DNA of 64,000 nt from Thiorhodovibrio frisius (GTDB lineage: Bacteria > Pseudomonadota > Gammaproteobacteria > Chromatiales > Chromatiaceae). A program made the position numbers and the translations under genes. The stretch covers positions 3,032,501 to 3,096,500 of the forward strand of contig NZ_CP121471.1 in assembly GCF_033954835.1 (NCBI RefSeq), written 5' to 3'. A model generated the notes under the pieces. The model searched no databases, was not told the origin of the DNA, and saw only the letters and a program-made list of their open reading frames with translations. Shown in pieces: positions 639 to 16,004 of this stretch (position 1 is the stretch's first letter; every line of letters starts with the position of its first letter).

Positions 639-641
639 TTG

Positions 642-1694
642 CTAGCCCCGCCCACGGCCAACGTCAACGCCATGCCCTTCGCCCGACGCCCCAAGCTCGA
701 AGGAAACAGTTTTTTCACACCATGGACATACAGCATCGCCCGGCCCGTTCAGACACATGAGTTTTCCACAACCACAAACAGCGAAGGCGGTAGCATTGCC
801 GCAGTGCGGACAACTCGGCGAGCCAATCAGCTCGGATGTGTTGACCATCTCTCCCGTTGCACGCGGATCAGACCAGTCAAAATAGCTTTCATCGAGCGGA
901 TAGCACCCTGTAAGCCGGTACATGAAAAGCTTCAATTCGAATTCGCTGCTCTCGAGCTTCTGGCTTTTGCGCTCATATTTGAGCAAGTAAGGCTTGTGAT
1001 TATTCTGGCAGCGTCCGACTAAGGTCACACAGGAAGGATCGACAACGCTAGGCGGGGGATCTTTCACCAAACGCATGATGCGCTCATCGAACACCTCGCT
1101 GAGCGGTTGTTCGGAAAGCTCGCCGAGGCTCTTGCTGCGCCAGAGAACCGATCCGCTAATCCAGTCGACAAATTTTTTATAATCGCCGGGTCGGGACTCC
1201 TCAAATAGGAGCACCTGATCCGTCAGCCGTTTAAGCACCGAAAAGTCCGTATCCCGTCCCAGCCCCACCGCAACGATAGTGGCGGATCGGTCATATTCTT
1301 GGCGCCAACGCTGAATCGCGGCATCAGGGGCATCGGTTGGATGACCGTCAGTGAAGAGATAAACAATCGGCCTCCAGTCGCCCTTACGTTCCGGGCCACT
1401 GCGAACAACTGATCGGTCGATTTCGGACATCAAGGTATCGAGAGCGGCACCGAGACTGGTGCCTCCACCCAAGGGAAGTTTTGGCGGATAAAAGGAGAAA
1501 AGCTCAATGAGGGGGACAATCGTCTTGGCGAAACCCGCGAATGCAATGACGCTGACGTGGACTGTCTCAAGCGCATGGGGGTCCGAACGCAACGATTGCA
1601 CGACAGCATGCAGCCCTTCCTCCATCTTGCGGAGGTTATCTCCAGCCATGGATTCCGAACAATCCAACAGGAAGAAAACTGGAAGTCTACGCAT
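642..1694 (-). CDS. VWA-domain Ter protein with C-terminal zinc ribbon (TerY-C type)
   Basis: 350 residues. The first ~190 residues form a von Willebrand A domain with the MIDAS signature DCSES (D11-x-S-x-S), the Thr loop in GGGTSLGAAL and the distal TDGHPTD motif, so metal-dependent ligand binding should be intact. The C-terminal ~70 residues carry paired cysteines (CPHC, CGCGKLMC, CPWC), the metal-binding TerY-C extension. In the family such proteins are partners of a PP2C phosphatase and a kinase in chemical-stress signalling. It is the longest of three VWA proteins in this operon and the only one with the zinc ribbon. It starts 105 bp after the stop of the preceding VWA gene and ends three bases before the next start. 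Cytoplasmic, no signal peptide. Confidence 0.85.
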   Translation of the reverse strand: MRRLPVFFLLDCSESMAGDNLRKMEEGLHAVVQSLRSDPHALETVHVSVIAFAGFAKTIVPLIELFSFYPPKLPLGGGTSLGAALDTLMSEIDRSVVRSGPERKGDWRPIVYLFTDGHPTDAPDAAIQRWRQEYDRSATIVAVGLGRDTDFSVLKRLTDQVLLFEESRPGDYKKFVDWISGSVLWRSKSLGELSEQPLSEVFDERIMRLVKDPPPSVVDPSCVTLVGRCQNNHKPYLLKYERKSQKLESSEFELKLFMYRLTGCYPLDESYFDWSDPRATGEMVNTSELIGSPSCPHCGNATAFAVCGCGKLMCLNGPGDAVCPWCEKTVSFELGASGEGHGVDVGRGRG

Positions 1695-1799
1695 GATTTG
1701 CCCTCACGCTTATAGTCCCCGACACCCTTAAGAGAATGAAAGGCTCAGGTTTAACGGTAAATCTTTGCTCTCGCGGATAGGCGCCGAAACGACGCAATA

Positions 1800-2441
1800 C
1801 TAAAGCACCAATTGGACCTCGGCTGGTGGTGGTGGCAGATTCACCTGTTCCTCCAGCCCCGCGCTGCTCGAGCCGACCGAAACGCTCGCGGATACCCATT
1901 TGAAAAAGTTAGAAAACGCGGTCGAATCGAGCGTGTCGAGCTTGACAACCCGATCAGTTAGCTCGTGCAAGAGATCGAGTTTGACCTTAGGCCCCGCCGC
2001 ACAGGCAACAATGGTGCCAAAGTTCCGTTTCTTGATCGCTAAAATCGCCTCATGGTAAGCAAGAAGATCCGATGGGCTGCCGTCTGTCATGACAAAAAGA
2101 AGTGGCCGCCAGTCGCCTTTCGCATCGTCTGTGCTGCGGCGCACTTCCCGATCAACCTTGGTAATCAACAACTCCAGTGCGGCACCGAGAAAGGTAGCCC
2201 CAGAACCGGGAACCGAAATTTCTTCCAAGCGAACCTCATCCAAGGGGGTGAGCGGCAGGTATTCTCGCGCCTCAACGTCGAAGGTGACGATTGAAATGTG
2301 CACACTTTCCAAAGCATAAGGGTCTTGGCGCAGCGCACTCAGCATTGCCTGCAACCCAACATTGACTGAATGGATAGGCTCGCCACGCATCGACCCTGAC
2401 GTGTCGAGCAAAATATAAACTGGCAGCCTCCTCACGCTCAT
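1800..2441 (-). CDS. VWA-domain tellurium-resistance protein (TerY family)
   Basis: 213 residues, almost all one VWA domain. MIDAS motif DTSGS at residues 13-17, Thr in the GSGATFLGAA loop, and MTDGSPSD further on. The length fits plain TerY proteins without a zinc ribbon. It ends in a proline-rich tail (NLPPPPAEVQLVL) that is closely matched by the tail of the other short VWA protein at 3107-3745, which suggests the two arose by duplication within the operon. The gene starts 9 bp after the stop of the TerD-like gene and is surely cotranscribed. The role is inferred from the family: a scaffold or ligand-binding partner of TerD proteins in stress response. Confidence 0.85.
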   Translation of the reverse strand: MSVRRLPVYILLDTSGSMRGEPIHSVNVGLQAMLSALRQDPYALESVHISIVTFDVEAREYLPLTPLDEVRLEEISVPGSGATFLGAALELLITKVDREVRRSTDDAKGDWRPLLFVMTDGSPSDLLAYHEAILAIKKRNFGTIVACAAGPKVKLDLLHELTDRVVKLDTLDSTAFSNFFKWVSASVSVGSSSAGLEEQVNLPPPPAEVQLVL

Positions 2442-2450
2442 ACAGACACC

Positions 2451-3095
2451 TCAGGCATACTTTTTGAGCCAATCAACGAAAGAATCGGATTCCGAAGGAG
2501 TGCCAATCGCAGTTAACTTCCAGTTTTCGGCTTCGCGCTCCAATTCGGCAAACAGCATCGAGCGACAGCTTTGATATTCGACTCCGCCAGATAGATCGAA
2601 ACGCGCCATTTCTCGTCCCTTGGCGTCCTCGGCCCGGATAAATGCATTCCGGACTTGGCCAAAGCTCTGTTGATTCTCGATTCCCTTATAAATCTGTACC
2701 ACAAAAACGACCTTGGTAAATTGGCTGGGAAGATCATTGAGTCGAACGATGATCTGCTCGTCGTCTCCCTCGCCCTCGCCAGTGCGATTATCACCCGTAA
2801 GCCAGACGCACCCAGAGCCGTGATGCATGTTATTGAAGAATATGACATCGCTGTCGAGCAGCGTCGCCTTACCGTTCGCATCTCGACCCAAGTCCAATAC
2901 CTTGCCATCGCTTTGACACAGAAAGGCAACGACATCAAGGTCGTAATCTTCGGCTTTTTTTCCGAACAAATTACCAAGCAGACCTTTGCCCTTTTCTTCG
3001 TTAATATCCCATCCAAGGCCGATAGTGACTTGGGATAAGTCGTGCTCCGTCTTGCGAAGGCTAATGCCTTGGCCCTTTTTTAGCTTTACGCCCAT
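2451..3095 (-). CDS. TerD-family stress protein, divergent
   Basis: 214 residues. It opens with the family start MGVKLKKGQGISLRK and keeps the calcium-binding core: YDLDVVAFL, DVIFFNNMHHGSGC, TGDNRTGEGEGDDE and SFGQVRNAFIR. The usual ending 'WKF.AVGQG' is replaced by WKLTAIGTPSESDSF, and there is an insertion GKGLLGNLFGKKAED near residue 40, so it is a divergent member closer to TerX/TerZ-like paralogs than to canonical TerD. TerD domains bind Ca2+ and are thought to act near the membrane with TerC. The gene sits 11 bp after one VWA gene and 9 bp before another, alternating TerD and VWA along the operon. Confidence 0.85.
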   Translation of the reverse strand: MGVKLKKGQGISLRKTEHDLSQVTIGLGWDINEEKGKGLLGNLFGKKAEDYDLDVVAFLCQSDGKVLDLGRDANGKATLLDSDVIFFNNMHHGSGCVWLTGDNRTGEGEGDDEQIIVRLNDLPSQFTKVVFVVQIYKGIENQQSFGQVRNAFIRAEDAKGREMARFDLSGGVEYQSCRSMLFAELEREAENWKLTAIGTPSESDSFVDWLKKYA

Positions 3096-3106
3096 CGCGC
3101 ACCTCT

Positions 3107-3745
3107 TCAGATAACCAGATTGACTTCGGGCGGTGGCGGCGGCAAGTCGTCAAGGCCAGAAACTTCTTTATTGCCCTGCTCGACTTTTTGGCTGCCGGTT
3201 GAAATCGACGCCGAGACCCACTTGAAAAACGCCCGAATAGTATTCGCGTCAGCCGTATCTAGTGCGACTACCACCTCGGTGATCTGCTTGAGAATGGTCT
3301 GGTCGGCACCATGTCCAGCTGCACAAGCCACCACCACTCCAGTTCTCGCCAGCTTGAAACGGTCGAGGCCTTTGCGCCAATCGTCGGTCGGAGAACCATC
3401 GGTCATAATAAACACCAAGGGCTTCCAGTCACCTTTCGCATCGGCAGTGGTGCGAGCAACTTCTGCATCAATACGCTCAGCCAGCAACTCAAGCGCCTCA
3501 CCGAGAGCCGTTGTGCCGGTTGCATTAAGGGGCGGTGGCTGAAAGTTGCTGAGCTCCGTCAGTGGAATCGCTTGATGTGCGGTGCTGTCAAAGGTGATCA
3601 CCGACAGATAAGCGGTCTCAAGTGCATAGGGATCTTGGCGCAAGGTTGAGACCAACACTTGAACGCCATTCTTGACCGCTTCGATGGGCTCGCCACTCAT
3701 GGAACCCGAGGTATCGAGTAGCAGATATACAGGAAGTCTTCGCAT
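3107..3745 (-). CDS. VWA-domain tellurium-resistance protein (TerY family)
   Basis: 212 residues, single VWA domain. MIDAS DTSGS at residues 11-15, Thr in the NATGTTALGEAL loop, and MTDGSPTDDW. The tail GLDDLPPPPPEVNLVI parallels the tail of the VWA protein at 1800-2441. The start is supported by the closely matching MRRLPVYLLLDTSGSM opening seen in all three VWA proteins of the operon. It lies between two TerD genes (44 bp downstream of one, 11 bp upstream of the other). Cytoplasmic. Family role: stress-response scaffold that works with TerD-type proteins. The specific ligand is unknown. Confidence 0.87.
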   Translation of the reverse strand: MRRLPVYLLLDTSGSMSGEPIEAVKNGVQVLVSTLRQDPYALETAYLSVITFDSTAHQAIPLTELSNFQPPPLNATGTTALGEALELLAERIDAEVARTTADAKGDWKPLVFIMTDGSPTDDWRKGLDRFKLARTGVVVACAAGHGADQTILKQITEVVVALDTADANTIRAFFKWVSASISTGSQKVEQGNKEVSGLDDLPPPPPEVNLVI

Positions 3746-3789
3746 CTTTATCTCTCCCGTGCATTTACCAGTTACACTGGTCGCAATTA

Positions 3790-4368
3790 TTATGCAACAT
3801 CGACGCCAAACTGATGGCAGAGCCCTTCCAGCCCCCCAGAAAAGCCCTGTCCAACGGCCTTAAATTTCCACTCAGAATTTTGGCGATAAATCTCCCCAAA
3901 AATCATCGCCGTCTCAGTACTGTAATCTTCCGACAAATCAAACCGTGCAATCTCCCCATCAGTATCCAAATTGACGATCCGAATGAAGGCATCGGAGACC
4001 TGCCCAAAATTTTGCCGTTGAACTTCGGCATCATGAATTGTTACACAAATGACGATACGCTCTATTTTTTCGGGCACTTTTGTGAGTTCAATCTCAATCG
4101 CCTCATCATCGCCTTCGCCAGTGCCAACCTTGACATCACCAGTGTGCGTTACTGAGCCGCATAACGAAACGAGTTGATGATAAAAGACGAAGTCCTCGTC
4201 CCGACGCACCTTGCCGCTGCCCCCGAGAAGGAATGCACTTGCGTCAAGATCAAGCTCTTCTCCATTAGTTGCTCTTTCCTGCCAGCCAAGCCCGACAAGA
4301 ATCCGAGTAAGCCCGGGCTCAGTCTTCGATAATGAAAGGCTACCACCTTTCTTCAGAAGTACTGCCAT
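3790..4368 (-). CDS. terD: TerD-family tellurium-resistance / stress protein
   Basis: 192 residues, the standard TerD length. The whole consensus is visible: LDLDASAFLLGGSGKV, EDFVFYHQL, SVTHTGDVKVGTGEGDDE, FGQVSDAFIRIVN, IARFDLSEDYSTETAMIFGEIYR, and the end WKFKAVGQGFSGGLEGL with a Gly-Val close. The acidic GEGDDE loop is a calcium site in the family. It is the second gene of the operon, 45 bp after TerC. Known role of the family: Ca2+-binding proteins that give tellurite, phage and colicin resistance and help handle chemical stress at the membrane with TerC. The gene symbol is given by family; which ter paralog it is cannot be settled by eye. Confidence 0.9.
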   Translation of the reverse strand: MAVLLKKGGSLSLSKTEPGLTRILVGLGWQERATNGEELDLDASAFLLGGSGKVRRDEDFVFYHQLVSLCGSVTHTGDVKVGTGEGDDEAIEIELTKVPEKIERIVICVTIHDAEVQRQNFGQVSDAFIRIVNLDTDGEIARFDLSEDYSTETAMIFGEIYRQNSEWKFKAVGQGFSGGLEGLCHQFGVDVA

Positions 4369-4413
4369 AGATCACACCTCTTTCTTCTGGTCAAAAAACG
4401 TCTTCTAGGTTAG

Positions 4414-5433
4414 CTAGTCCCCATCCTGCGAAGGATTATCTTTCTCTGGGAAGAGTATGGAGGCGACAACACCAAGAGTAAGAGTGCCAAATACAATGCC
4501 CAGGCTTAAAGCTGGAGAGATATGCACACCAGTATCCCCAATAGCATGATTCCATGCCTGCAAAACCATTTTCCCCGCGATAAAAAAAAGCAGCCCGATG
4601 ACCGCCTTTTCCAAGTGAACAAGAAAGCGAGTCAACGCTGCCAGAACGAAATAAAGACTACGTAAACCGAGTATCGCGAAAATCATCGCTGCATAAACCA
4701 GAAGGGGCTCTTGGGTGACAGAGATGACGGCAGGAACAGAATCAAACGAGAATGCAATATCAGATGTCTCGATCGCGGCCAAACAGAGAAAAGCTGGCGT
4801 CGCATAAAGAGCACCATTGCGTGTGACCGACCTTTCCCCATCTGGAGAATCCAATAGCTCTCTGTGCTTGATAAAGAACCGATTCAAGTGCAGGCGCGTA
4901 TAGATAGGCATCATTTTTCCCGTCAACCTGACGCTCCAATGATCCGAGTAGTCCTCAATTTCTTCACCGCCTCCCCCAGCCTTGAGCATCTCTACCGCAC
5001 TCCAGGCAACCAGTGCTGCAAAAATAAACCCGACCCAAGGGCTTGCCATAAAGAGACTCGTGCCGATCAAAACGAAAATCGCGCGGAAAACCAGCGCCCC
5101 GAGAATTCCCCAATACAAAATCCGGTGTTGAAGTCCTGACCGAATGCTGAAGGAAGCGAAAATTGCCATGAATACCATGAGGTTATCAACAGATAGACTC
5201 TTCTCAAGAAAATATCCGGCAAGAAACAGATCCGCCCATTCTTTCGTAAATCGCCCCCACAAGTAAAGGTAGAAGCAGAGCGCCAAGGAAATCCAAAAAA
5301 CGGACCACTTCGCCGCATCAGTTACGCTAATTACAGTCGTTGAGCGATGGGAAAAAAGGTCAGCATAAAGCGAGACACCAATAACGATCAGGAAAATGAC
5401 TAATGCCTCGATAGGAAAACCGAAATGTTCCAT
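4414..5433 (-). CDS. terC: TerC-family integral membrane protein
   Basis: 339 residues with about nine hydrophobic segments. The family signature FLAGYFLEKSLSVDNLMVF is present near residue 90, and a second acidic membrane motif AIETSDIAFSFDSVPAV near residue 215. Both are the paired conserved acidic helices of TerC/Alx proteins, which are linked to metal (manganese) export and to docking of Ter complexes at the membrane. It is the first gene of the minus-strand operon and would anchor the TerD and VWA proteins encoded behind it. About 110 bp of AT-rich sequence separates it from the next upstream gene and should contain the operon promoter. No clear promoter hexamers were picked out. Confidence 0.9.
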   Translation of the reverse strand: MEHFGFPIEALVIFLIVIGVSLYADLFSHRSTTVISVTDAAKWSVFWISLALCFYLYLWGRFTKEWADLFLAGYFLEKSLSVDNLMVFMAIFASFSIRSGLQHRILYWGILGALVFRAIFVLIGTSLFMASPWVGFIFAALVAWSAVEMLKAGGGGEEIEDYSDHWSVRLTGKMMPIYTRLHLNRFFIKHRELLDSPDGERSVTRNGALYATPAFLCLAAIETSDIAFSFDSVPAVISVTQEPLLVYAAMIFAILGLRSLYFVLAALTRFLVHLEKAVIGLLFFIAGKMVLQAWNHAIGDTGVHISPALSLGIVFGTLTLGVVASILFPEKDNPSQDGD

Positions 5434-5543
5434 GTATACCCCAGGTTAACTCTTGATAAGCGGTGCTGTCTGCAAAAACAGTGACGTCGAAACTGTCGTA
5501 ACATGCATATTTAGCTTATTAAGCAAGTTTTAAATCACGACAC

Positions 5544-5942
5544 TTACTGCTCGTTCAGTCTTTGTGCCGCCCTATACGCCGACGCTGATTGTTTACCAGC
5601 GCAATGCTCATTAAAATAATTAATCATTTCTGAGTGACGAGAAATATTCCGATTGTATGCGTCGACTGACGCTTGGCTAGTTCGATCCACAAAAGATCTA
5701 CTAATATTTTCACTTAGCCATTTGGCTTCATTGTAAAGTTCTACGCATTGTTCCATGGCAGCATCAGAAATAACGGGAACATTTGCGCTAGTCGTACTAC
5801 TTGGTGGGACCTCATAATCTCTAGCATTAGCATTTATACTAAACAAGACGGCTAACAACACCAGAAAGTACCGACAAATATTGTTCTGGAGCTTTAAGCT
5901 TTTACGTTGGATTTTACCGGAAAGATGACATCTTTTCGCCAT
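5544..5942 (-). CDS. Small exported protein of unknown function
   Basis: 132 residues. A positively charged N-terminus (MAKRCHLSGKIQRKSLK) is followed by a hydrophobic stretch (YFLVLLAVLFSINANA) that ends in a good signal-peptidase site, ANA-RD. The mature ~95 residues are polar, with CVELYNEAKWL and a later Cys in NEHCAGK that could form one disulphide in the periplasm. The start is backed by GAGG about ten bases upstream of the ATG. I do not recognise the family. It is minus strand like the Ter operon but separated from it by 110 bp, and it marks the transition into AT-rich DNA. Confidence 0.6.
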   Translation of the reverse strand: MAKRCHLSGKIQRKSLKLQNNICRYFLVLLAVLFSINANARDYEVPPSSTTSANVPVISDAAMEQCVELYNEAKWLSENISRSFVDRTSQASVDAYNRNISRHSEMINYFNEHCAGKQSASAYRAAQRLNEQ

Positions 5943-6077
5943 TTCTATTTCCTCTATCTTAAAATATCAACCCACCACTTGGAGAGTTGTTTTGAGTATA
6001 CAGAAGTTCCGCATTTTTTAAATATTTAAAGGTTTTTCGATTGTTAGTTGATATACTTTGCTTTTTTTCAGGTATAT

Positions 6078-6293
6078 TCAATTTGCAAGAACAGTTTTTG
6101 TTCGCAAAGAAACATGAGCGTTTGACACATCGAAACTATCATCAGGTTTGATTTCTCGGGACTCTCTTGTTGTCATATTTACAAGAGTTGTTTTACCACC
6201 AGACACCGACACTTTTACATAATGACAAGATTTCACTTCTGGTATTTCGGAAACCTTTACGTCAGCGTCACTAGCACAACCAAATAGTACTGG
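6078..6293 (-). pseudogene. 5'-truncated lipoprotein gene cut at the edge of the direct repeat
   Basis: Reading the minus strand from 6293 gives an open frame of 71 residues ending at TGA 6080-6078. It begins PVLFGCASDADVKVSE, a textbook lipobox (L-F-G-C), so it should be the end of a lipoprotein signal peptide followed by the mature protein (later SCHYVKVSVSGGKTTLVN). The first part of the signal peptide is missing: an in-frame TAG sits at 6296-6294, and the next base that can be recognised belongs to the 1.2-kb repeat starting at 6301. The gene therefore looks truncated by whatever recombination placed the repeat here. It is too short for automatic calling, and the family is not recognised. 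Confidence 0.5.
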
Positions 6294-6300
6294 CTAGTCG

Positions 6301-7503
6301 CCAAGCGGAGTGCAAATAGGCTAAATTGTTGTTGCTTGGAAGGCTTTAGGATAACTTCTCGTTCGAGGAATCTTCGAGATTAGCCTCCTTCCGCGAAACG
6401 GTCAAGAGATATTATCCACTCCGTAATATTTTCTCTTTTCCGTGCATGGCCGCCCCGCAATTTCGGCTTCATGGCGCTAAATCTTGTAGGGAATTTTCCT
6501 ACAAACGTACTCGGAATATGGATTTGTATATGATTCGAGCACGCATCTTTGTTCATTTCGCGCTCTTCAATTTCTCGTAATAGGCAGAGAGTGTTTAGAT
6601 TACTCTGATAATGTGCTCACATTGAACCCAGGGCACTATCAAGCACGACAATCAAGAAAAATGCAGCATCAGCACCTTTGGTTTTCTTGATGCTGCCAGC
6701 GCTCTGCTTCCGAAGGGCTGACCTGGATCAGTCTCGTTCGACAGACGCGACTCGCTGCTGCCGGGGAGGCAGCATCGTCCGCTGAGGCATCAGAACGCCC
6801 CCGGCTTGACGATGCAGAACTGCGGCGATCCGACGGCTCGCTACTGTCGCTTGATTGACTGCGGGCAGTCATGTATTCATGCTTACCAATGCTTCATGAG
6901 GTTTGAATTGTGGCAAATGACGATGGCCACGAGGCTCTACTGATACCGGGTGAGGGGTTACTTGGCTACCAGGCTCCTCCTGCGGCCAATGCGCGTCAGC
7001 AGCTTGAGTTGCAAGACTCGGCGATGTCCGGCGGGGATCGCAAGCTGACTCTTGATCAGGTGGTCGAGGACTTGCTTGCCGATGGCCTGATTACAGCAGA
7101 GACTGCGAAAGACCTGTTGCGTCGCTGCGCGGGCGCAAAGAAAGATGGCCTGCATCTGCTTGAGCGCATCGCCGAGCAACATCCGATGAGCGCCCAGGTG
7201 CCGCTCCGGCAGCTCGATCTTGAGGCACTGACGGTCTGGCTGGCGGGGCGTTGCGGTCTGCCCTATCTGCGCATCGATCCGCTGAAGATCGATGTGGCCA
7301 CGATCGGCGAGTTGACCACCATCGCCTATGCGACCTGGAACCAGATCCTGCCGGTCGCATTAACTCCCGAGAAGGCCGTTTTTGCCACCTGCGAGCCTTA
7401 CCTGACCGATTGGATGGCAGAGCTTCAGCAGGTTCTGAAGCGCCGTATTGAGCGTGTCGTTGCCAATCCGCGCGATATTGAACGCTTCCGCCGCGAGTTT
7501 TTC
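6301..7503. repeat. Direct repeat copy A (leader plus 5' end of GspE-like gene)
   Basis: 1,203 bp matching 12171-13373 in the same orientation without any indel. Counting by eye gives 33 mismatches (about 97.3% identity): 26 in the 609-bp non-coding leader, 7 in the coding half. Both ends are abrupt: at 6300/12170 and at 7504/13374 the sequences become unrelated. Copy A lies at the left edge of the AT-rich segment 7504-12170, copy B at its right edge and continuous with the complete gene. Confidence 0.95.
6652..6696 (+). promoter_or_regulatory. Overlapping alternative hairpins in the GspE-like gene leader
   Basis: Two 9-bp inverted repeats overlap. TCAAGAAAA (6652-6660) can pair with TTTTCTTGA (6682-6690), and GCAGCATCA (6663-6671) can pair with TGATGCTGC (6688-6696). 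They share bases 6688-6690, so a transcript would have to choose or form a knot. The same layout is in copy B (around 12522-12566), where one base of the second stem is lost. It lies about 215 bp before the GTG start. A regulatory role is inference only. Confidence 0.3.
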
Positions 7504-7671
7504 TATGACGAACAAGAGCCGCAGCTGTTCGACGCCATACGCGAACTATTGCCGAACTATACCAACGAGCGCCTTGAAAGTACCACTTTCTTTTCGACAT
7601 TCATACCCGAAACGAATCGAGTCATCCGGTGCGACAAGCGCTACAGGAAGTGCATTATAATTTTCCGCTAG
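6910..7671 (+). pseudogene. Truncated GspE/PilB-type ATPase gene (N-terminal domain only)
   Basis: The GTG start and the first 198 codons match the intact gene at 12780 with one amino-acid change (SGGDRK instead of SGEDRK). After codon 198 (REFF) the frame enters unrelated sequence and stops 55 codons later. What remains is the N-terminal MshEN/GspE-N type region. The ATPase core with Walker A, Asp box, Walker B and the zinc motif is absent, so it cannot be a motor. The last 126 bp overlap the 3' end of the opposite-strand ion-channel gene. It could still make a soluble N-domain fragment that binds the partner of the intact protein. Six of the seven coding differences from the intact copy are silent. 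Confidence 0.85.
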
Positions 7672-10332
7672 ATATCGTTTAGTCCGAAAGAATATTTCCT
7701 CGGTAATCACTTCCCCGTTCTTTGGGTGGAAGAACGCAAAACGAAGGCAACGATTAACAAGGAAATCGTTATAGAGCTTCCTCACCTCCGGCTCATCAGC
7801 GATATGCACCATAAGCTGGGACATGATGTTATTAATAATAATTGTATTTCGAAACCTAAAAGGACTTCGCTCTAAAGCCGTTGCATACTGTCGCTCTTTA
7901 AATACAACGAGAATATTGTCGTTTATCCTTCTCTTTTCAGCGCTCGACAAGTCAAGATTCGTGTGAATTAAACTCAACAACTTCATCGTAACCAGATAGC
8001 TATCTTTGTCGGGCAAAGATAAAATAATACGATCATACTGCGTGATCTCCTCGACTAACAGGGCATCGAGATTATCGGCTACAGTAATATCACAATCTAA
8101 GAATGACCCACAATCAATCAGCTCCCGCCCGATTTGCAGAACCTTGTCAAAACTCCGATGAGATTGCATATAAAAATCCACTAATTCCTCGTGTCGAACC
8201 TTTCTAAATTGAGGTTGGGATATTGCACTTTCCAATTTAGCGCGGTCCGATATTACGATGAGATCTATCAACGGCACGTCTGCTTGCTCAATCGATATTC
8301 CGGGCTTTGGAAAAATCTCAGGCCTTAGATGTCCATCGTAATGATCTTTACTGGACACACCTATTACTGACCCCCAACATATTGAATCGATAACATCAAA
8401 AAAGTCCAAACCAACCAGCGCGTCGTCGTTTGAAAAGGTCCGCAAAGGAAAATATGTTATTTGATGATCCTGAGAAAAAAACAGTTCACGGTAAATCCAA
8501 AATATCTGTGGGTTCTTTATTGCCTCCGAAATGATTGGGCCCACATACTGTGAAGTATGTACGATAGAAAAAAAAGGTTCACGCGAAAGCGCCTTTTTTC
8601 GCGCTTGCGAGAGTTTTTTTGCCCGGAAATCATCTCGGACTTTGATAAAGAGACGTTGTGTAAAAGGACTTTGGAATACGGGATCTGAAACCTCATCAAA
8701 TGACTCAATCATTTTGCTCAAGGACAGCGCCATGACTTCTCTAAAAATTGAAATGCTATTCTCGTTTGACACCTCCAAAAGGCATATCTTTCTTTTCTCG
8801 AGGAGATATGCTTCGATCAGCTTCAAAACAAATGTTTTATCAGAGAAAAGAGCAGAAAATATTTGAAGATTATAGGTGTCTCCCATTTTGGAATCGCCAC
8901 CGTCTTGAGAAAATTCCAAATCAACAAAGATCAATATTTTATTAGCGTTATATACAAAATAACGATGCCGAAGGAACGGCTCGGAAATATCGGCTGTCTT
9001 AAATTGCAAAGACAATTTCCTTGTGCTGCGCAATATATTTTCGAAATCAGAATCTATATCCGATGTCTTTTTCCGAGTAAGAACCAATGCGTCCCTTTTG
9101 AACTTCGCCTTCTCACGTAAATCGAAAATTTCGATAATCCTGCGCAATTTTTCGTCAAAATTGATAAGAAGAATCGGCTCCTTTAAGTTGAATAGATTTC
9201 CGCCTCCGTCTAGATCCCGTAATTCATCGCGAACCTCCTGCTTCAGAAAGTTTTCCTTCGACTTTGCCATATTTTCAAGTATGACGGACGTAAAGAGGTT
9301 CAAAAAAACAAATACTGTCAGCACAATAAATGAGACAAAAAACATCCAGTGCAGTGGATGAATTTGCTGAGTAGCGTACATGACATCTGTCCAGTCCTCG
9401 AATGTCAAGACGCGAAAGAGAGTCAAAAATGCCGTCGGTACGTCGTGCCACAATTTTTCGGTTCCGGGAAAGCTTCCGTAAAGATGAACTCCAATGACGG
9501 CGTAAACATAAAATATGATAATCAACAACAAAATGATGCTCAGAATCGGCTTAATGGAGTCACCTAGTGCTGTTAAGATATTGCGCAGTGAAGAAATGCC
9601 TGAAAATAGCCTTACCACGCGGAACAGCCGGATAATTCTGGCTGTAGCTATTCCAATTGCTTGCTCAAATGGCAAAACGGTCAAAACAACAATTATAAAA
9701 TCGAAGAAATTCCATCCATCTGAAAGAAATTTTTGAAATGTTTTTTCACTAAGTATTCTGATAGATATTTCTGCAATAAAATAGACGATAATAAAATAGT
9801 TTATAGCGCGAAAATAATAATCCATTTGCGGCGTTAATTTTAAACTAGCCTCTAGTCCAGCTGCCAGAGCAAAAATGACAATTATGACGTTTGTTACAAG
9901 ATTAAAGAGTGGACTTCTTGCGACTATAAAAAAGTGATTACGTACTTTTTGGATAAGAGCAACCAATAATGTGAAACGAAGAGCACGTAGAACAATCAGA
10001 TAGTTTGAGCTAGTCGCTGGTATCACACTAAGTATGATAATTGTTGCATCAAGCCAGTTCGGCCAGTGCTTAAAGAAATTAGCACGCTCTTTGGAAGAAA
10101 CTAAACGCAGGAAAAAGTCTCCTGCGAAGAGAGCAGTTATAAGAATATTACTGTAATGTAGTGTTTCGGAAAGTAGCGCAAAATCGGGGAAATGAAAAGG
10201 GATACCAAGAAGGCAAATATATAAGTAAATAATTATCAAAAACGAAATATTGTAAGCGTCATGTGTTACTACGTTGGTCGCAGTTCGCTGAAAAATTAAA
10301 TCGTAATCCTTGACACTCCTCTTCAGTAGCAT
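7546..10332 (-). CDS. Voltage-sensor cation channel with large RCK-like cytoplasmic region
   Basis: 928 residues. Residues ~30-140 look like a first four-helix voltage-sensor-like unit (S4-like YLIVLRALRFTL with only two Arg). Residues ~145-245 form a second sensor with a full S4 ladder (ARIIRLFRVVRLF: R232, R235, R238, R241). S5, a pore loop with filter TFEDW at 310-314, and S6 end near 352. The filter resembles the Na+/Ca2+ type (NaChBac, Cav repeats), not the K+ filter GYG. The remaining ~570 soluble residues include FFDVIDSICWGSVIG and VPLIDLIVISD, close to the C-terminal domain of CASTOR/POLLUX channels, and a nucleotide-fold-like stretch YDRIILSLPDKDSYL. AT-rich compared with neighbours, which suggests transfer. 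The start ATG has AAGG 11 bases upstream. The end overlaps the truncated ATPase ORF. Confidence 0.85.
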   Translation of the reverse strand: MLLKRSVKDYDLIFQRTATNVVTHDAYNISFLIIIYLYICLLGIPFHFPDFALLSETLHYSNILITALFAGDFFLRLVSSKERANFFKHWPNWLDATIIILSVIPATSSNYLIVLRALRFTLLVALIQKVRNHFFIVARSPLFNLVTNVIIVIFALAAGLEASLKLTPQMDYYFRAINYFIIVYFIAEISIRILSEKTFQKFLSDGWNFFDFIIVVLTVLPFEQAIGIATARIIRLFRVVRLFSGISSLRNILTALGDSIKPILSIILLLIIIFYVYAVIGVHLYGSFPGTEKLWHDVPTAFLTLFRVLTFEDWTDVMYATQQIHPLHWMFFVSFIVLTVFVFLNLFTSVILENMAKSKENFLKQEVRDELRDLDGGGNLFNLKEPILLINFDEKLRRIIEIFDLREKAKFKRDALVLTRKKTSDIDSDFENILRSTRKLSLQFKTADISEPFLRHRYFVYNANKILIFVDLEFSQDGGDSKMGDTYNLQIFSALFSDKTFVLKLIEAYLLEKRKICLLEVSNENSISIFREVMALSLSKMIESFDEVSDPVFQSPFTQRLFIKVRDDFRAKKLSQARKKALSREPFFSIVHTSQYVGPIISEAIKNPQIFWIYRELFFSQDHQITYFPLRTFSNDDALVGLDFFDVIDSICWGSVIGVSSKDHYDGHLRPEIFPKPGISIEQADVPLIDLIVISDRAKLESAISQPQFRKVRHEELVDFYMQSHRSFDKVLQIGRELIDCGSFLDCDITVADNLDALLVEEITQYDRIILSLPDKDSYLVTMKLLSLIHTNLDLSSAEKRRINDNILVVFKERQYATALERSPFRFRNTIIINNIMSQLMVHIADEPEVRKLYNDFLVNRCLRFAFFHPKNGEVITEEIFFRTKRYLAENYNALPVALVAPDDSIRFGYECRKESGTFKALVGIVRQ

Positions 10333-10367
10333 GTTTTTTGCCTTGTTTATCGAAGCCTCGACTATAG

Positions 10368-10490
10368 TTAAACGTGGTCGTTTTGCGGAGAATCAAGCAG
10401 TGAGTACTTATCTCCTGCAATCACCATATGCTCCAGCGTTCTTGAGCTGGGCTCATAAACAATCAGAAAGCGACGCGCGTACGCACACAT
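10368..10490 (-). CDS. Possible 40-residue ORF upstream of the channel gene
   Basis: ATG at 10490, stop TAA 10370-10368, ending 35 bp before the channel start and on the same strand. The sequence starts MCAYARRFLIVYEPSSRT and looks like ordinary protein rather than random translation, and the frame is also open for about 26 codons upstream of the ATG. No ribosome site stands out. It may be a small leader gene or the 3' remnant of a lost gene. No family recognised. Confidence 0.22.
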   Translation of the reverse strand: MCAYARRFLIVYEPSSRTLEHMVIAGDKYSLLDSPQNDHV

Positions 10491-10756
10491 AATGTCTAGC
10501 CGCCATGAAATGGAGAAATTTGCGCTGTCGAGTTTTTGGTCCCCGCACAGACGAGTCAGTAAAATACTTTAGAAAACCGGCACTAGGGGATTGTGCTGCC
10601 GCAAATATATTTATTGTCAAAGAGGTATAGATTTTTTTTACACGAATTTCGACAAACTTGCATCAAACAGCAAATTCTGTCCAATATTTAGAGTGAACAG
10701 CGTATTCGGCCTTACCAGTGCACCTGCAATAGACGATTAATCCTTAGCAAGATCAA

Positions 10757-11149
10757 TTATGTAACTTGAGTAATTTTGCAATCAGTATCACTTGATCTGT
10801 CAGGATATTGTGAAAACTCGGCATATCCGCCTTTTTTTTGATTGTGTTTTCCTTTCTTTACGACATTAATGAAGTCTGCGGCTAATATAGACTCCGGGAT
10901 ATTCGGAGTTCCTGTTAAATCCCAAATGAACCAAGATAATCCGTAAACGCCATACTTTCCTTCCCTGCGGTCTCCATGACATCTTGCGCATGCTTCAATG
11001 TAAAGTACTTAACCGGTCAACCCAGAACTTTGCGGCGAATAGTCATCAACGTCGACACCACATGCTGTAAGGAGTATTGCCGTCAAGATGAGTGGTAAAC
11101 GGAAATATCGGATGACTGCGCCATCTTCCAAAGGATACGCCATTTCCAT
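10757..11149 (-). pseudogene. Cytochrome c-type lipoprotein gene interrupted by an in-frame stop
   Basis: From ATG 11149 the minus strand encodes a lipoprotein signal peptide (FRLPLILTAILLTACGVD, lipobox LTAC) and 46 codons in total before TAA at 11011-11009. The very same frame continues after this stop with VLYIEACARCHGDRREGKYG, a CxxCH haem-attachment motif, and runs to a second TAA at 10759-10757. The intact product would be a ~130-residue membrane-anchored monohaem protein. No Met follows the haem motif in the reading frame, so the usual Met axial ligand is missing. Either the gene has decayed, or the stop is read through, or it is a sequencing error (GGT TAA GTA). A short gene missed by length filters; its neighbours are other island genes on the same strand. 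Confidence 0.6.
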
Positions 11150-11471
11150 TTTTGAACCTCACGAAATTTAGATCTTTAAAAAAACGAAATGACTCGGTTG
11201 CACTTAAGCCGCTCTTTACGCGTCTATTAAACTAAGTAAACTCAGTTTTCCGGACATAAGACACATGCCGACAAACGGAAATCACCGCAATTGAAATGTA
11301 AACTAGCATTTAACGCGCCATAACGTCTTTTTCCAAATTTGCATGTAGGGAATTTAGACTCTTCTCCGGTTAACTGGAGACCCGGAAGTCTGAACTCACT
11401 CGTGTCTATAAGACAAGATTGCAGGAGTGGCTATTTTTACTACCCGGGGCAATTTAATAAAGTTGAGTGCT

Positions 11472-11756
11472 TTAGTATGTGCGTCTTCTTGAACCATTTA
11501 CGTATTCTTCAGTTCGACCGTTTGCAAGAGATACCGCTACCGTACCAGCAGACACTTGTACATTTACAGCGTTTGAACCGTAGGTCCTCTTTCGTGAACC
11601 GTTGACGTATTCCTCGACACGGCCATTCTTTGTTACGGCTGCTACCAAAGTTCCGTCAGTGCTCGCCGCTTTGACATTTAAACCATAAGACCTTTTCCGA
11701 GAACCATTTTCATACTCCTCGACTCTCCCATTATTAACCTTTACCACCATTGCCAT
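11472..11756 (-). CDS. 94-residue protein made of an exact 35-residue repeat
   Basis: The motif NGRxEEYxNGSRxRxY occurs at residues 9-24, 44-59 and 79-94, exactly 35 residues apart, with the last copy ending the protein. Spacers (GLNVKAASTDGTLVAAVTK and GSNAVNVQVSAGTVAVSLA) are alternating hydrophobic, as in beta strands, so each unit is probably a pair of beta hairpins. No signal peptide or membrane segment. The start is well supported by AAGGAG eight bases before the ATG. The net charge is strongly mixed with many Arg and Glu in the repeat. I do not know the function; it could be a small beta-repeat binding protein. AT-rich island gene. Confidence 0.7.
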   Translation of the reverse strand: MAMVVKVNNGRVEEYENGSRKRSYGLNVKAASTDGTLVAAVTKNGRVEEYVNGSRKRTYGSNAVNVQVSAGTVAVSLANGRTEEYVNGSRRRTY

Positions 11757-11958
11757 TTTTTAACTCCTTACTTGCTTAAGATGCGACCAATGTAAGATAG
11801 ATATCGTAGACTGTTTTTCTGTTGTAACTTTATACCAATGAGCATGAAACAGCTCACTTATAAAACAACCTGATTACAGCTGTTCATTATTATTGCTTCG
11901 CTTTAGTTCCTGCAATGATAATGTTTCTGCTCCTCTTGGCATTACGCCGCATTGCACC

Positions 11959-12087
11959 TTAGCTGCCGGACTTATGGGTAATGGTATGATCAAGACCTAC
12001 AACGCCGTACATAATGGCACTTCCTAGCCCTCCAATTGCCCCAAATACGAAAAAGTATATGTTCTTATTAGAAATCAAATTTTTCAT
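11959..12087 (-). CDS. Possible 42-residue single-span membrane protein
   Basis: ATG at 12087, stop at 11961-11959. MKNLISNKNIYFFVFGAIG opens a peptide with a Lys-rich start, one hydrophobic segment containing GAIGGLGSA, and a short polar tail ending SGS. This is a typical layout for a small membrane protein, but there is no strong ribosome site and no homology evidence. It is the gene closest to the right-hand repeat (83 bp away). Confidence 0.35.
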   Translation of the reverse strand: MKNLISNKNIYFFVFGAIGGLGSAIMYGVVGLDHTITHKSGS

Positions 12088-12170
12088 TAGTCACTCTATG
12101 TCTTGATTTAAATAAACCCGATCTGTACAAAGTATCAGCCTTCTTGAGTAAGTCAGACCACCTTGGGCCT

Positions 12171-13373
12171 CCAAGCGGAGTGCAGATAGGCTAAATTGTT
12201 GTTGCTTGGAAGGCTTTAGGATAACTTCTCGTGCGAGGAAACTGCGAGATTAGCCTCCGTCCGCGAAGCGGTCAAGAGATATTATCCACTCCGTAATATT
12301 TTCTCGTTTCCGTGCATGGCCGCCCCGCAATTTCGGCCTCATGGCGCCAAATCTTGTAGGAAATTTCCCTACAAACGTACTCGGAATATGGATTTGTATA
12401 TGATTCGAGCACGCATCTTTGTTCATGTCGAGCTCTTTAATTTCTCGTAATAGGCAGAGAGTGTTTAGATGACTCTGATAATGTGCTCACATTTAACCCA
12501 GAGCACTATCAAGCACGACAATCAAGAAAAATGCAGCATCAGCGCCTTTGGTTTTCTTGATGCTGTCAGCGCTCTGCTTCCGAAGGGCTGACCTGGATCA
12601 GTCTCGTTCGACAGACGTGACTCGCTGCTGCCGGGGAGGCAGCATCGTCTGCCAAGGCATCAGAACGCCCTCGGCTTGACGATGCAGAACTGCGGCGATC
12701 CGACGGCTCGCGACTGTCGCTTGATTGACTGCGGGCAGTCATGTATTCATCCTTACCAATGCTTCATGAGGTTTGAATTGTGGCAAATGACGATGGCCAC
12801 GAGGCTCTACTGATACCGGGTGAGGGGTTACTTGGCTACCAGGCTCCTCCTGCGGCCAATGCGCGTCAGCAGCTTGAGCTGCAAGACTCGGCGATGTCCG
12901 GCGAGGATCGCAAGCTGACTCTTGATCAGGTGGTCGAGGACTTGCTTGCCGATGGCCTGATTACAGCAGAGACTGCGAAAGACCTGTTGCGTCGCTGCGC
13001 GGGCGCAAAAAAGGATGGCCTGCATCTGCTTGAGCGCATCGCCGAGCAACATCCGATGAGCGCCCAGGTGCCGCTCCGGCAGCTCGATCTTGAGGCGCTG
13101 ACGGTCTGGCTGGCAGGGCGTTGCGGTCTGCCCTATCTGCGCATCGATCCGCTGAAGATCGATGTGGCCACGATCGGCGAGTTGACCACCATCGCCTATG
13201 CGACCTGGAACCAGATCCTGCCGGTCGCATTAACTCCCGAGAAGGCCGTTTTTGCCACCTGCGAGCCTTACCTGACCGATTGGATGGCAGAGCTTCAGCA
13301 GGTTCTGAAGCGCCGTATTGAGCGTGTCGTTGCCAATCCGCGCGATATTGAACGCTTCCGCCGCGAGTTCTTC
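12171..13373. repeat. Direct repeat copy B (leader plus 5' end of the intact GspE-like gene)
   Basis: Partner of 6301-7503 at a constant offset of 5,870 bp. It is continuous with the complete ATPase gene, so this is the original location of the coding part. The 609-bp leader carries no gene I can support. A short inverted repeat CCAAGC/GCTTGG sits at the very left end of both copies. Confidence 0.95.
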
Positions 13374-14663
13374 GGTGCGTCGACTTCCATGCGCGGCGCA
13401 CGCTCCAAGAACCAGGCCCAGCAGGTCGATCTGCAAAACCTCGAAGCCTTGGTGGAACTCGGCAAGGTTGGCACCCTGGAGGCGACGAATAGCCATATCG
13501 TGCACCTTGTTGATTGGCTGCTGCAATATGCTTTCGATCAGCGTGCCAGCGACATTCATCTGGAGCCACGCCGGGAGGCAGGCAATGTGCGCTTTCGCAT
13601 TGATGGCGTGATGCACCAGGTCTGCCAGATTCCGGCAGTAGTCATGACCGCCGTGACCAGCCGCATCAAGATTCTCGGGCGCATGGATGTGGCCGAAAAG
13701 CGCCGACCGCAGGACGGTCGCATCAAGACCCGCACCCAGGGGGGACTTGAGGCCGAGATGCGCCTGTCGACCATGCCGACTGCCTTCGGCGAGAAATTGG
13801 TCATTCGCATCTTCAATCCGGAGGCGCTGCGGGAGGACTTGAGCGTCCTCGGCTTCGAACCCGAGGAAGAATCGGCCTGGCAGCGCATGATCGGGCAGCC
13901 GCACGGCATCATCCTGGTGACCGGGCCGACCGGATCGGGCAAGACGACCACGCTCTACTCGACCCTGATCAGCCTGGCCACGCCAGACATCAATGTCTGC
14001 ACGGTCGAGGACCCGATCGAGAATCTGGTGCCGGCGCTCAACCAGATGCAGGTCAATCATGGCATCGGGCTCGACTTCGCCAGCGGTGTTCGCACCCTCT
14101 TGCGGCAGGACCCGGATGTGATCATGGTCGGCGAGATCCGCGATCTGGAAACCGCAGAGATGGCCGTGCAGGCGGCCCTGACCGGGCACCTGGTGCTCTC
14201 AACCCTGCACACCAACGACGCGCCCTCGGCCATCACCCGATTGCTTGATCTGGGCGTGCCGCATTATATGATCAACGCCACCCTGATTGGCGTGCTGGCG
14301 CAGCGACTGGTACGCACCCTTTGTCCGCACTGCAAGAGAAGCGCCGCGATCAATCCCACCCTATGGGAGTCCTTGGTCAATCCCTGGTCGCTCGCTCCGC
14401 CCGCGAGCATCGCCGTGTCCGATGGATGCGATGAATGCCGCCAGACGGGCTATCGCGGACGCACCGGACTCTATGAAATCCTGACGCTGACACCCGCGAT
14501 TCGCGCGCTGATCAGCGGCGCCATTGACGAACCTGCGCTGCGCGCTCGCGTCTATCAGGAGGGCATGCGTCCGTTGCGCATCAGCGGTGCCCGCAAGGTG
14601 GCGGCTGGCTTGACCAGTTTCGACGAGATCTTCCGCGTCCTGCCGGCTGCGCAAGACGTCTGA
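12780..14663 (+). CDS. GspE/PilB-family type II secretion or type IV pilus assembly ATPase
   Basis: 627 residues. N-terminal ~200 residues are the MshEN/GspE-N type region (LTLDQVVEDLLADGLI, then a segment containing CGLPYLRIDP). The motor core has Walker A GPTGSGKTTTLYSTL, the Asp box near EDPIEN, Walker B DPDVIMVGEIRD and the His box TGHLVLSTLHTND. A four-cysteine zinc site follows (LCPHCK and CDECRQTGYRGR). Such ATPases power assembly of pseudopili or pili at the inner membrane. No other secretion genes are nearby, so GspE versus PilB cannot be decided. GTG start chosen because GAGG lies ~11 bases upstream and the family N-terminus begins soon after. Its first 594 bases are duplicated at 6910. 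Confidence 0.9.
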   Translation: MANDDGHEALLIPGEGLLGYQAPPAANARQQLELQDSAMSGEDRKLTLDQVVEDLLADGLITAETAKDLLRRCAGAKKDGLHLLERIAEQHPMSAQVPLRQLDLEALTVWLAGRCGLPYLRIDPLKIDVATIGELTTIAYATWNQILPVALTPEKAVFATCEPYLTDWMAELQQVLKRRIERVVANPRDIERFRREFFGASTSMRGARSKNQAQQVDLQNLEALVELGKVGTLEATNSHIVHLVDWLLQYAFDQRASDIHLEPRREAGNVRFRIDGVMHQVCQIPAVVMTAVTSRIKILGRMDVAEKRRPQDGRIKTRTQGGLEAEMRLSTMPTAFGEKLVIRIFNPEALREDLSVLGFEPEEESAWQRMIGQPHGIILVTGPTGSGKTTTLYSTLISLATPDINVCTVEDPIENLVPALNQMQVNHGIGLDFASGVRTLLRQDPDVIMVGEIRDLETAEMAVQAALTGHLVLSTLHTNDAPSAITRLLDLGVPHYMINATLIGVLAQRLVRTLCPHCKRSAAINPTLWESLVNPWSLAPPASIAVSDGCDECRQTGYRGRTGLYEILTLTPAIRALISGAIDEPALRARVYQEGMRPLRISGARKVAAGLTSFDEIFRVLPAAQDV

Positions 14664-14803
14664 AATCGTGCCGCCATGTCTCTGCTTGCGCGGCCTGCTG
14701 CTGTTGATCAGTCCGGCTCATAGCCCAAAACGCCGTTCTGGCATGACAGGATGGGAGACCATGGAACCTGGTACTTCACATTTCAGAAAATGAGGCTAAC
14801 CAC

Positions 14804-15853
14804 TTGTCCGATCACAGGCCGTCGCATGCAACAGGTCGCATCACCACCGCCAGCTTCCGCCCGGCCTGGTGGCTACCGGGTGCGCATCTGCAAACCCTCT
14901 GGCCAAGCCTGACCCGCACTCGCCCCGGCTTAGTAGCACTGAACCGCCGGCGCATTGAGCTGACGGATGGGGATTTCATTGACCTGTCCGTCTCTTCCAG
15001 TAGCGGCCCCAAGGTGCTTATCATCCATGGACTTGAAGGCGACCTGAATTCCCATTACAGCGCGTCCCTAACGCTATCTCTGGCCGAAGCCGGATTCTGC
15101 CCCCTGTTCATGCACCTGCGCGGCTGCTCGGGTGAACCGAACCGACTGGCCCGCAGCTATCATTCGGGCTCCAGCGACGATTTGCACCAGGTGCTCCGCG
15201 ACTTGGCCCGCGACCCAGAGGATTTTCCAACAGCCGCCATCGGCATCTCCCTCGGAGCCAATCTGCTGCTGAAATATCTGGGGGAACGTGGGAGGGAACG
15301 CGGGGAGGAAGGTGACGGCAAGCACCACAGGATGCCGGATGATCAGCAGGCGGCCTTTCTCGACACCGCCATCGCCATCTCCCCGCCCTTCGTCCTGCGC
15401 GATGCGATGCTGCGGCTCAACCATGGCGTCTCACGGCTCTACCGGACGCATCTCCTGCGCCGACTCAAGCGCAATTTCAAGCGCAAGTTTGCCAGTCGCC
15501 ATTGCCCGCTCAACGTCAATCTCGACAACATCCGCGACTTCAATGCCCTCGACGAGCAGATCACCGCCCCGCTGTGCGGCTTTGCCGGTGTCTTCGACTA
15601 TTACAACCAAACCAGCTGCCGCAGCTACCTGCCCGCCATTACCACCCCGACTCTCATCCTGCACGCGCGCGACGATCCCTTTCTATACCCGGCCAGCATC
15701 CCGTTTGAATCCGAGCTTGGTCCCGGCGTGACTCTGGAGCTCAGCCCCCACGGCGGACATGTGGGTTTCGTCTCCGGCCCCTGGCCCTGGCAAGCTGAAT
15801 ACTGGCTTGAGAAGCGCATTCTCGAGCATCTCGAGTGCTATCGTACCGGCTGA
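14804..15853 (+). CDS. YheT-like alpha/beta hydrolase
   Basis: 349 residues, close to E. coli YheT (about 340). Family marks: FRPAWWLPGAHLQTLWPSL at the N-terminus, LIIHGLEGDLNSHY, HLRGCSGEPNRLARSYHSG, nucleophile elbow GISLGANLLLKYLGE (GxSxG), LHARDDPFLYP with the catalytic Asp, and SPHGGHVGF with the catalytic His. Probably an esterase-like cytoplasmic enzyme; the substrate is not known. A loop RGREEGDGKHHRMPDD after residue 165 looks like a local insertion. TTG start used: no ATG or GTG fits the frame upstream before a stop, and GAGG stands nine bases before it. Confidence 0.88.
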   Translation: MSDHRPSHATGRITTASFRPAWWLPGAHLQTLWPSLTRTRPGLVALNRRRIELTDGDFIDLSVSSSSGPKVLIIHGLEGDLNSHYSASLTLSLAEAGFCPLFMHLRGCSGEPNRLARSYHSGSSDDLHQVLRDLARDPEDFPTAAIGISLGANLLLKYLGERGRERGEEGDGKHHRMPDDQQAAFLDTAIAISPPFVLRDAMLRLNHGVSRLYRTHLLRRLKRNFKRKFASRHCPLNVNLDNIRDFNALDEQITAPLCGFAGVFDYYNQTSCRSYLPAITTPTLILHARDDPFLYPASIPFESELGPGVTLELSPHGGHVGFVSGPWPWQAEYWLEKRILEHLECYRTG

Positions 15854-16004
15854 ACCACAGTCGCAATGGGCAATAAAATTCCGTTACAACTGCTTGTCCC
15901 GCCACGCCGCCGTGGGATTGATCTCTGTCAGCATGGAGTGTCACCGTGATAGGTTTGAACGAGTACCATTTCAGCTGCAATCGGCTTGGTTGGAAATACT
16001 GTTT

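Follow-up and report, generated by a model that had tools for sequence, protein, structure and literature searches.

Known carriers of RCK rings are K+ channels and the CASTOR group; the channel BK (Slo1) has a K+ pore. BK carries one sensor and an extra S0 helix (PMC13095418), and CASTOR is Ca2+-selective and has an RCK ring (RCK1 at residues 320-552, RCK2 at 581-853), with two helices before the pore, four predicted in all, and no sensors there (PMC6697748). Among AnclNav (ancestor-like BacNaV) channels, NavPp, whose filter is TLEDWTD, is described as passing Na+ with Ca2+ inhibition, and CavMr, which has glycine at position 4, as Ca2+-selective (PMC7041947). CASTOR already provides a Ca2+-permeable pore with an RCK ring; what appears to be new in the protein described here is the attachment of such a ring to a NaV/CaV-type pore and its sensors. 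This protein of 928 residues is encoded in a stretch of 64,000 nucleotides from the purple sulfur bacterium Thiorhodovibrio frisius (contig NZ_CP121471.1, positions 3,032,501 to 3,096,500; hereafter the window, to which all coordinates refer). We consider it likely to be a horizontally acquired, probably homotetrameric cation channel in which an AnclNav pore and two sensors are joined to a CASTOR/POLLUX-like tandem-RCK ring, gated by both voltage and a ligand.

Sensors and pore

The channel gene (7546..10332, minus strand, ATG at 10332) is an intact open reading frame of 928 codons plus stop, and the sequence AAGG, a plausible ribosome-binding site, lies about 8 nt upstream of the ATG. The original prediction had placed a 928-residue protein at 7546-10332 without naming a strand, and the protein proved real. 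Searched whole against Pfam, it matched PF00520 (Ion_trans, E 9.8e-46) in two stretches, the best at residues 148-360, with a weaker match to PKD_channel (E 1.2e-8) over the same part. Residues 1-148 alone also matched PF00520 (E 2.3e-9). Because Ion_trans matches were obtained for residues 1-148 and 148-360 and none for residues 354-928, we read the protein as sensor, sensor, pore and long soluble part. The two sensor-like units that had been predicted were thus recovered, one from residues 1-148 alone and one within the best whole-protein stretch, and the comparison of the N-terminal part with ion-transport profiles, suggested earlier as a check, returned PF00520. Overall, the predicted layout was confirmed and its interpretation is supported in both halves, a NaV/CaV-type pore and a CASTOR/POLLUX-like soluble part, with the qualifications given below.

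The second voltage-sensor domain (VSD1, residues 141-258; 9559..9912, minus strand) has an S4 with R232, R235, R238 and R241. It is followed by the S5-P-S6 pore (residues 260-374; 9211..9555, minus strand), which matched an AnclNav pore profile at P 8.9e-35. The selectivity filter TFEDWTD, read from the protein, occupies residues 310-316 (9385..9405, minus strand) within LTFEDWTDV at residues 309-317, in agreement with the TFEDW previously noted. Among solved structures, those closest in sequence are eukaryotic T-type calcium channels and other calcium and sodium channels, followed by BacNaV channels. The nearest prokaryotic relatives came from a scan of genome contigs (594 stretches, 532 relatives, of which the best 80 were used); these channels have one sensor each and, in most cases, open frames of ~270-340 residues. 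TFEDWTDV or TFEDWTDI was found in 70 of these 80; the strings extracted from the remaining 10 were different or did not come from the filter. Identity to 39 aligned relatives picked from the 80 was 33-42%, and 38 columns in the pore and VSD1 are invariant across these and the 928-residue protein.

A tree of pore and sensor was built from 71 rows (thinned from 116), NavPp and CavMr not being among them. The channel protein grouped with six Campylobacterota TxEDWT rows (support 100/92), apart from the seven canonical TLESW rows, which formed a single group (100/99). With 3.59 changes per column, the branch of the channel protein is very long and its exact place unsure; six other TxEDWT rows lay nearer the TLESW group, and the TxEDWT label does not mark one clade in this tree. 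An AlphaFold prediction of the 375-residue N-terminal part with the 39 relatives had a mean predicted local distance difference test (pLDDT) score of 79.1. From residue 141 on, block pLDDT was 79-97 (82-94 over VSD1, 79-97 over the pore), and the modelled S6 is one long helix ending at residue 374. A Foldseek search with this model ranked NavAb and NavMs first.

By filter and tree, the pore and VSD1 are of the AnclNav type of prokaryotic Na+/Ca2+ channels, and the Nav/Cav-type pore of the original prediction can now be assigned to this group by profile as well. The likeness to NavPp and CavMr lies in VSD1 and the pore, the filter being TFEDWTD here and TLEDWTD in NavPp (PMC7041947). Given the aspartate at filter position 4, NavPp-like behaviour is expected, and by this analogy the channel should pass Na+ with some Ca2+ interaction. 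Unlike AnclNav relatives, which have one sensor and a short tail, the 928-residue protein has an extra sensor and ~550 soluble residues.

This extra voltage-sensor-like domain, VSD0 (residues 27-140; 9913..10254, minus strand), was recognised by the PF00520 match of residues 1-148 and by an AnclNav sensor profile, which residues 20-142 matched at P 2.4e-9 over 87 columns. In the AnclNav sensor alignment, R116 and R119 occupy the places of the VSD1 gating arginines R232 and R235, whereas the places of R238 and R241, read by eye past the alignment end, are taken by L122 and A125. Likewise, D72, R76, N92 and D95 correspond to E188, R192, N208 and D211 of VSD1. The loss of S4 arginines previously ascribed to the first sensor therefore holds for the third and fourth; the first two are kept, as are the S2/S3 acids D72 and D95. 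In the model, VSD0 forms four helices with a block pLDDT of only 41-63 before residue 111, the S4 helix alone being confident. VSD0 reads as a duplicated, degenerate AnclNav-type sensor, weakened rather than empty, and would most likely lie against VSD1 and play a structural or modulatory part. Judged from sequence, the domain order is as described, VSD1 and the pore are of AnclNav descent and VSD0 is of AnclNav-type descent.

The soluble part

The soluble part was compared by hhalign with a CASTOR-type profile. A plant CASTOR sequence served as bait and led to CASTOR and DMI1 chains in the PDB; further homologues were taken from bacterial plasmids (Deinococcus, Nonomuraea and Streptomyces) and from genomes, and the profile comprised first 11 and later 15 bacterial proteins. 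Two of the bacterial homologues (P0002 and P0003) carry PF06241 (Castor_Poll_mid). Against the 15-protein profile, the whole soluble region scored 29.9 in one alignment of 242 columns covering residues 586-861, a score reached by none of 300 shuffles (maximum 27.4) and none of 77 unrelated open-frame translations (maximum 27.8). Taken in pieces, residues 586-664 aligned to the RCK1 C-lobe, the Castor_Poll_mid part, with a score of 28.4 (1 of 500 shuffles as high, none at that position), and residues 743-861 aligned to RCK2 with 29.9 (0 of 500 shuffles). Residues 383-471 aligned to an RCK N-lobe, residues 361-505 scoring 27.6 (1 of 300 shuffles as high, elsewhere). None of 150 unrelated translations, from a pool of 157, reached any of the three piece scores. 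All three stretches thus beat the unrelated-protein controls; two are collinear and the third falls on the paralogous RCK2 N-lobe. The control frames were six-frame translations of flanking DNA, some of which may not be real proteins, and shuffles lose local order.

These alignments outline an RCK1-like region with N-lobe, insert and C-lobe (residues ~380-690; 8263..9195, minus strand; alignments at 383-471 and 586-664) and an RCK2-like region (residues ~700-928; 7549..8235, minus strand), whose N-lobe is apparently ~50 residues shorter than that of CASTOR. The last three strands of the second RCK are apparently present, as we interpret the alignment. The first strand aligned to RCK starts near residue 383 and the modelled S6 ends at residue 374, which leaves a short link, similar to those by which RCK rings exert their pull on S6. 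The motif FFDVIDSICWGSVIG, singled out in the original prediction, lies within the stretch aligned to the CASTOR middle domain. In order and size, the soluble part resembles the tandem RCK1-RCK2 of CASTOR, POLLUX, DMI1 and the bacterial PF06241 homologues; the pore does not, the channel being without a CASTOR-type pore and the CASTOR and AnclNav pore profiles matching each other without significance (P 0.034). Across 11 named genomes, the soluble part had a single match at E <= 0.1, to a K+ channel of Sulfurospirillum in its RCK domain (E 0.012 for the search of this genome; 26% identity over 121 residues, blastp E 4e-6 against seven translations with composition correction off). By eye, the Sulfurospirillum arcachonense open frame (L210) has a sensor-like part, a TVGYGD filter and an RCK domain.

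Several observations weigh against a ring of this kind. The soluble part (residues ~354-928) gave no significant match in Pfam, NCBIfam or PDB sequences; PF06241 in particular did not exceed its cut-off, whereas the bacterial homologue P0002 reaches 2.8e-35. Its P on the CASTOR profile is only ~0.004-0.009, whereas on the same profile five proteins picked by similar profiles, namely three K+ channels with RCK domains and two proteins of the second family described below, score 59-84 with P 8e-7 to 1.5e-10. With a 4-row CASTOR profile the soluble part was weaker still (P 0.12), and genome searches with this profile or with a 7-row profile of the second family did not report the channel gene itself. 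The first N-lobe (residues 361-505) aligns to the RCK2 N-lobe of the profile and not to RCK1. A single-sequence AlphaFold model of the soluble part was unusable (mean pLDDT 33.4), and for this reason the ring fold is argued from sequence alone. Only a single copy of the gene is known, so selection on the channel is not measurable. Finally, the Ca2+ ligands of CASTOR include D442, E493, D553 and D554, with D444 for Mg2+ (PMC6697748). In a single low-identity alignment, in which D442 and D444 are not safely placeable, E493 corresponds to Q624 and D554 to an arginine, and only D553 remains aspartate. With two of the three placed ligands changed, Ca2+ is not a safe guess as the ligand. The best reading of residues ~380-928, supported but not proven, is nevertheless a divergent tandem-RCK gating ring, most like CASTOR/POLLUX; the resemblance predicted for this region found no echo in the Pfam, NCBIfam and PDB sequence searches but was supported by profile comparison with controls.

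Single-sequence searches with the soluble part found only its own gene in 369 genomes of the class, 398 of the phylum and 194 of the family (overlapping samples), and nothing in plasmids or phages; in all of these samples such searches see close relatives only. A pattern scan of genome contigs with the soluble part matched 25 stretches and the whole protein matched 20 stretches of viral contigs, none of which was confirmed. Likewise, at 100 loci (L002-L101) no open frame other than its own copy matched the soluble part (blastp E <= 1). Among the best 80 of the 532 relatives we saw no other fused AnclNav-plus-ring channel, an absence that is not exhaustive. PF06241 was found in 0 of 51 relatives but also in 0 of 14 control genomes, making this comparison uninformative. 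The combination of a NaV/CaV-type pore, a spare sensor and an RCK-like ring was seen in no other genome searched. In the open literature, subscription journals lying mostly outside it, we found neither an RCK ring on any BacNaV or AnclNav channel nor an RCK channel that has two sensors and a single pore.

Second two-sensor family, alternatives and proposed working

With the 4-row CASTOR profile, matches were obtained in 17 of the 249 phylum genomes searched, and eight of the matching loci (L124-L130, L137) have open frames of 946-1002 residues with two sensors before the pore. At E <= 0.01, a profile of seven proteins of this second family (A3) had matches in 56 of the 78 genomes searched from one class; the strongest cover almost the full model and the others are partial. 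We call this class Zetaproteobacteria because it includes Ghiorsea: an AnclNav protein of one of its genomes (G554) is identical to one in a named Ghiorsea metagenome-assembled genome. Among 274 genomes of Thiorhodovibrio's own class, the same profile matched six, and none of the five that were read has the two-sensor CASTOR-pore layout. The second family is widespread and uncharacterised, with open frames of ~890-1000 residues (L124-L130, L137, L144-L173); more divergent open frames of ~930-1715 residues, some ended by locus edges, were also seen (L134, L136, L194-L203).

The two sensors of the second family match AnclNav sensors (P 6.1e-6 and 7.7e-7) and each other (P 2.5e-9). Its pore, with the filter TDPG, matches CASTOR (P 1.4e-7) and not AnclNav (P 0.44), and its ring matches CASTOR at P 6.4e-12. 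Compared with these sensors, VSD0 gave no match to the first (P 0.17) and a weak one to the second (P 0.0083 over 31 columns), and the pore profile of the family did not identify a homologous pore in the 928-residue channel (P 0.15). A second-family profile of 8 rows gave P 0.0033 for the whole protein and 0.014 for the soluble part; with 31 rows given, the P for the ring was 0.071, and for the divergent branch 0.087. The channel protein itself (P0001) was matched by 42 of the 78 Zetaproteobacteria-read genomes at E <= 0.01. The strong matches are to sensor and pore, in frames no longer than 396 residues, and none of those 78 showed an AnclNav channel fused to a ring.

The order sensor-sensor-pore-RCK-RCK, found in the second family, is therefore also that of the 928-residue protein, with a predicted ring; the two differ by the CASTOR-type pore, the TDPG filter and a first sensor unmatched by VSD0. 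Since the order is shared but, as far as testable, neither the pore nor the source of the sensors is, convergence is the simplest reading, and on sequence comparison the layout probably arose twice. The earlier claim of a non-standard layout is borne out for the NaV/CaV-type pore on an RCK-like ring, which appears to be new, and fails for the order, which the second family builds from other parts.

The same data allow other explanations. The soluble region could be another alpha/beta domain fused to an AnclNav channel, its CASTOR likeness being generic nucleotide-fold likeness. The lack of a family match, the weak profile P and the unusable model fit this view, as do an RCK2 N-lobe that looks shortened and a first N-lobe that aligns to the wrong repeat. 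Yet the profile is matched collinearly and with consistent spacing by two distinct stretches, at scores that 0 of 150 unrelated translations reach, and the match extends outside the Rossmann N-lobes into the RCK1 C-lobe and the start of the RCK2 C-lobe. The independent weak match, in Sulfurospirillum, is also to an RCK domain, and we regard a fold of another kind as unlikely. Descent from the second family by a domain swap, with sensors and ring kept and the pore exchanged for an AnclNav pore, would account for the same domain order and similar length. It would also account for a local match of residues 747-822 to L129 and L130 (E 0.001 among 18 subjects), for the P of 0.0033 of the first second-family profile at the same place in the whole protein, and for the match of VSD0 to the second sensor (P 0.0083 over 31 columns). 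However, AnclNav sensors are a much closer fit for VSD0 (P 2.4e-9 over 87 columns, against P 0.17 for the first sensor of the family), and the ring fits the larger profile of 31 given rows (P 0.071) less well than ordinary CASTOR homologues (P 0.0097 and 0.0087), which makes a swap very unlikely in our view.

The gene might also be a passenger on a recombination scar, no longer expressed or used, as its low-GC insert, a stop codon that abuts a gene remnant, the partial gene duplicate nearby and its presence in one genome only could suggest. On the other hand, 928 codons are intact, residues of the pore and VSD1 are conserved, the ribosome-binding site is plausible and the last three strands of the second RCK are apparently present, and a silent passenger seems distinctly improbable.

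For the AnclNav-type channel with two sensors and an RCK-like ring, we infer the tetramer, the ion, the ligand and the gating as follows. Depolarisation would move the S4 of VSD1, with its four arginines, and pull the S4-S5 linker as in BacNaV. The ring would hang from the S6 helices by a short link and, when ligand-bound, pull S6 as in BK or CASTOR, and the voltage and cytosolic-ligand inputs would add on one gate. BK, in which a sensor and a tandem-RCK ring likewise act on one gate, is the proposed functional analogue. We lean, if only slightly, towards a channel that would be the sodium-channel equivalent of BK, with an additional sensor built in and with joint voltage and ligand gating, assembled independently of the second family. 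If true, RCK rings would be a portable gating module that crosses the divide among K+, Na+ and Ca2+ pores. A natural fusion of this kind would show that a ring can gate a NaV/CaV-type pore and would give a ready-made test of ring and sensor pulling one gate in a small homotetramer. Together with the second family, two lines would have reached the same five-part layout with different pores.

Genomic context and probable acquisition

The channel gene lies in a 4.67-kb insert of low guanine-cytosine (GC) content (7504..12170) between the two copies of a 1203-bp direct repeat, whose left copy (6301..7503, plus strand) is 97.3% identical to the right one (12171..13373, plus strand). The repeat duplicates the 5' portion of a T2SSE/MshEN (PilB-like) ATPase gene together with the DNA upstream of it; this gene is intact at 12780-14663 and includes part of the right copy. 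GC content is 39-41% over 8-12 kb and ~60% from 14 kb on. At third codon positions the channel gene has a GC fraction of 0.40; two genes on its right have 0.75 and 0.73, and TerC on its left has 0.51. In two sister genomes, no match to the channel protein was found at E <= 0.001, and a DNA search with positions 1-16000 of the window gave no match over the channel gene beyond a short remnant. This remnant (7486..7547, plus strand) ends at the stop codon of the channel gene and shares 82% identity with a section of another gene, presumably egtD, that lies 6.9 kb before the window begins. The foreign character of the insert is shown by its sequence, and the channel gene was probably acquired horizontally. 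The transferred island of the original prediction is supported by low GC, the contrast at third codon positions (smaller relative to TerC), the lack of a sister-genome match and the flanking repeats.

A C-terminus cut by the insert junction was considered and set aside, as the final strands seem to be there and the remnant reaches no further into the gene than its stop codon, though these points are not decisive. The same insert encodes a 94-residue IceA2-family protein (11472-11756, minus strand; PF05862, E 5.6e-35). A ~48-bp stretch at 11942-11990, perhaps the end of a mobile element, has near-identical copies in one sister genome (two at 98%, one at 88%). To the left lies a tellurite-resistance-type gene group (TerY_C/VWA, VWA, TerD and TerC; 642-5433, minus strand).

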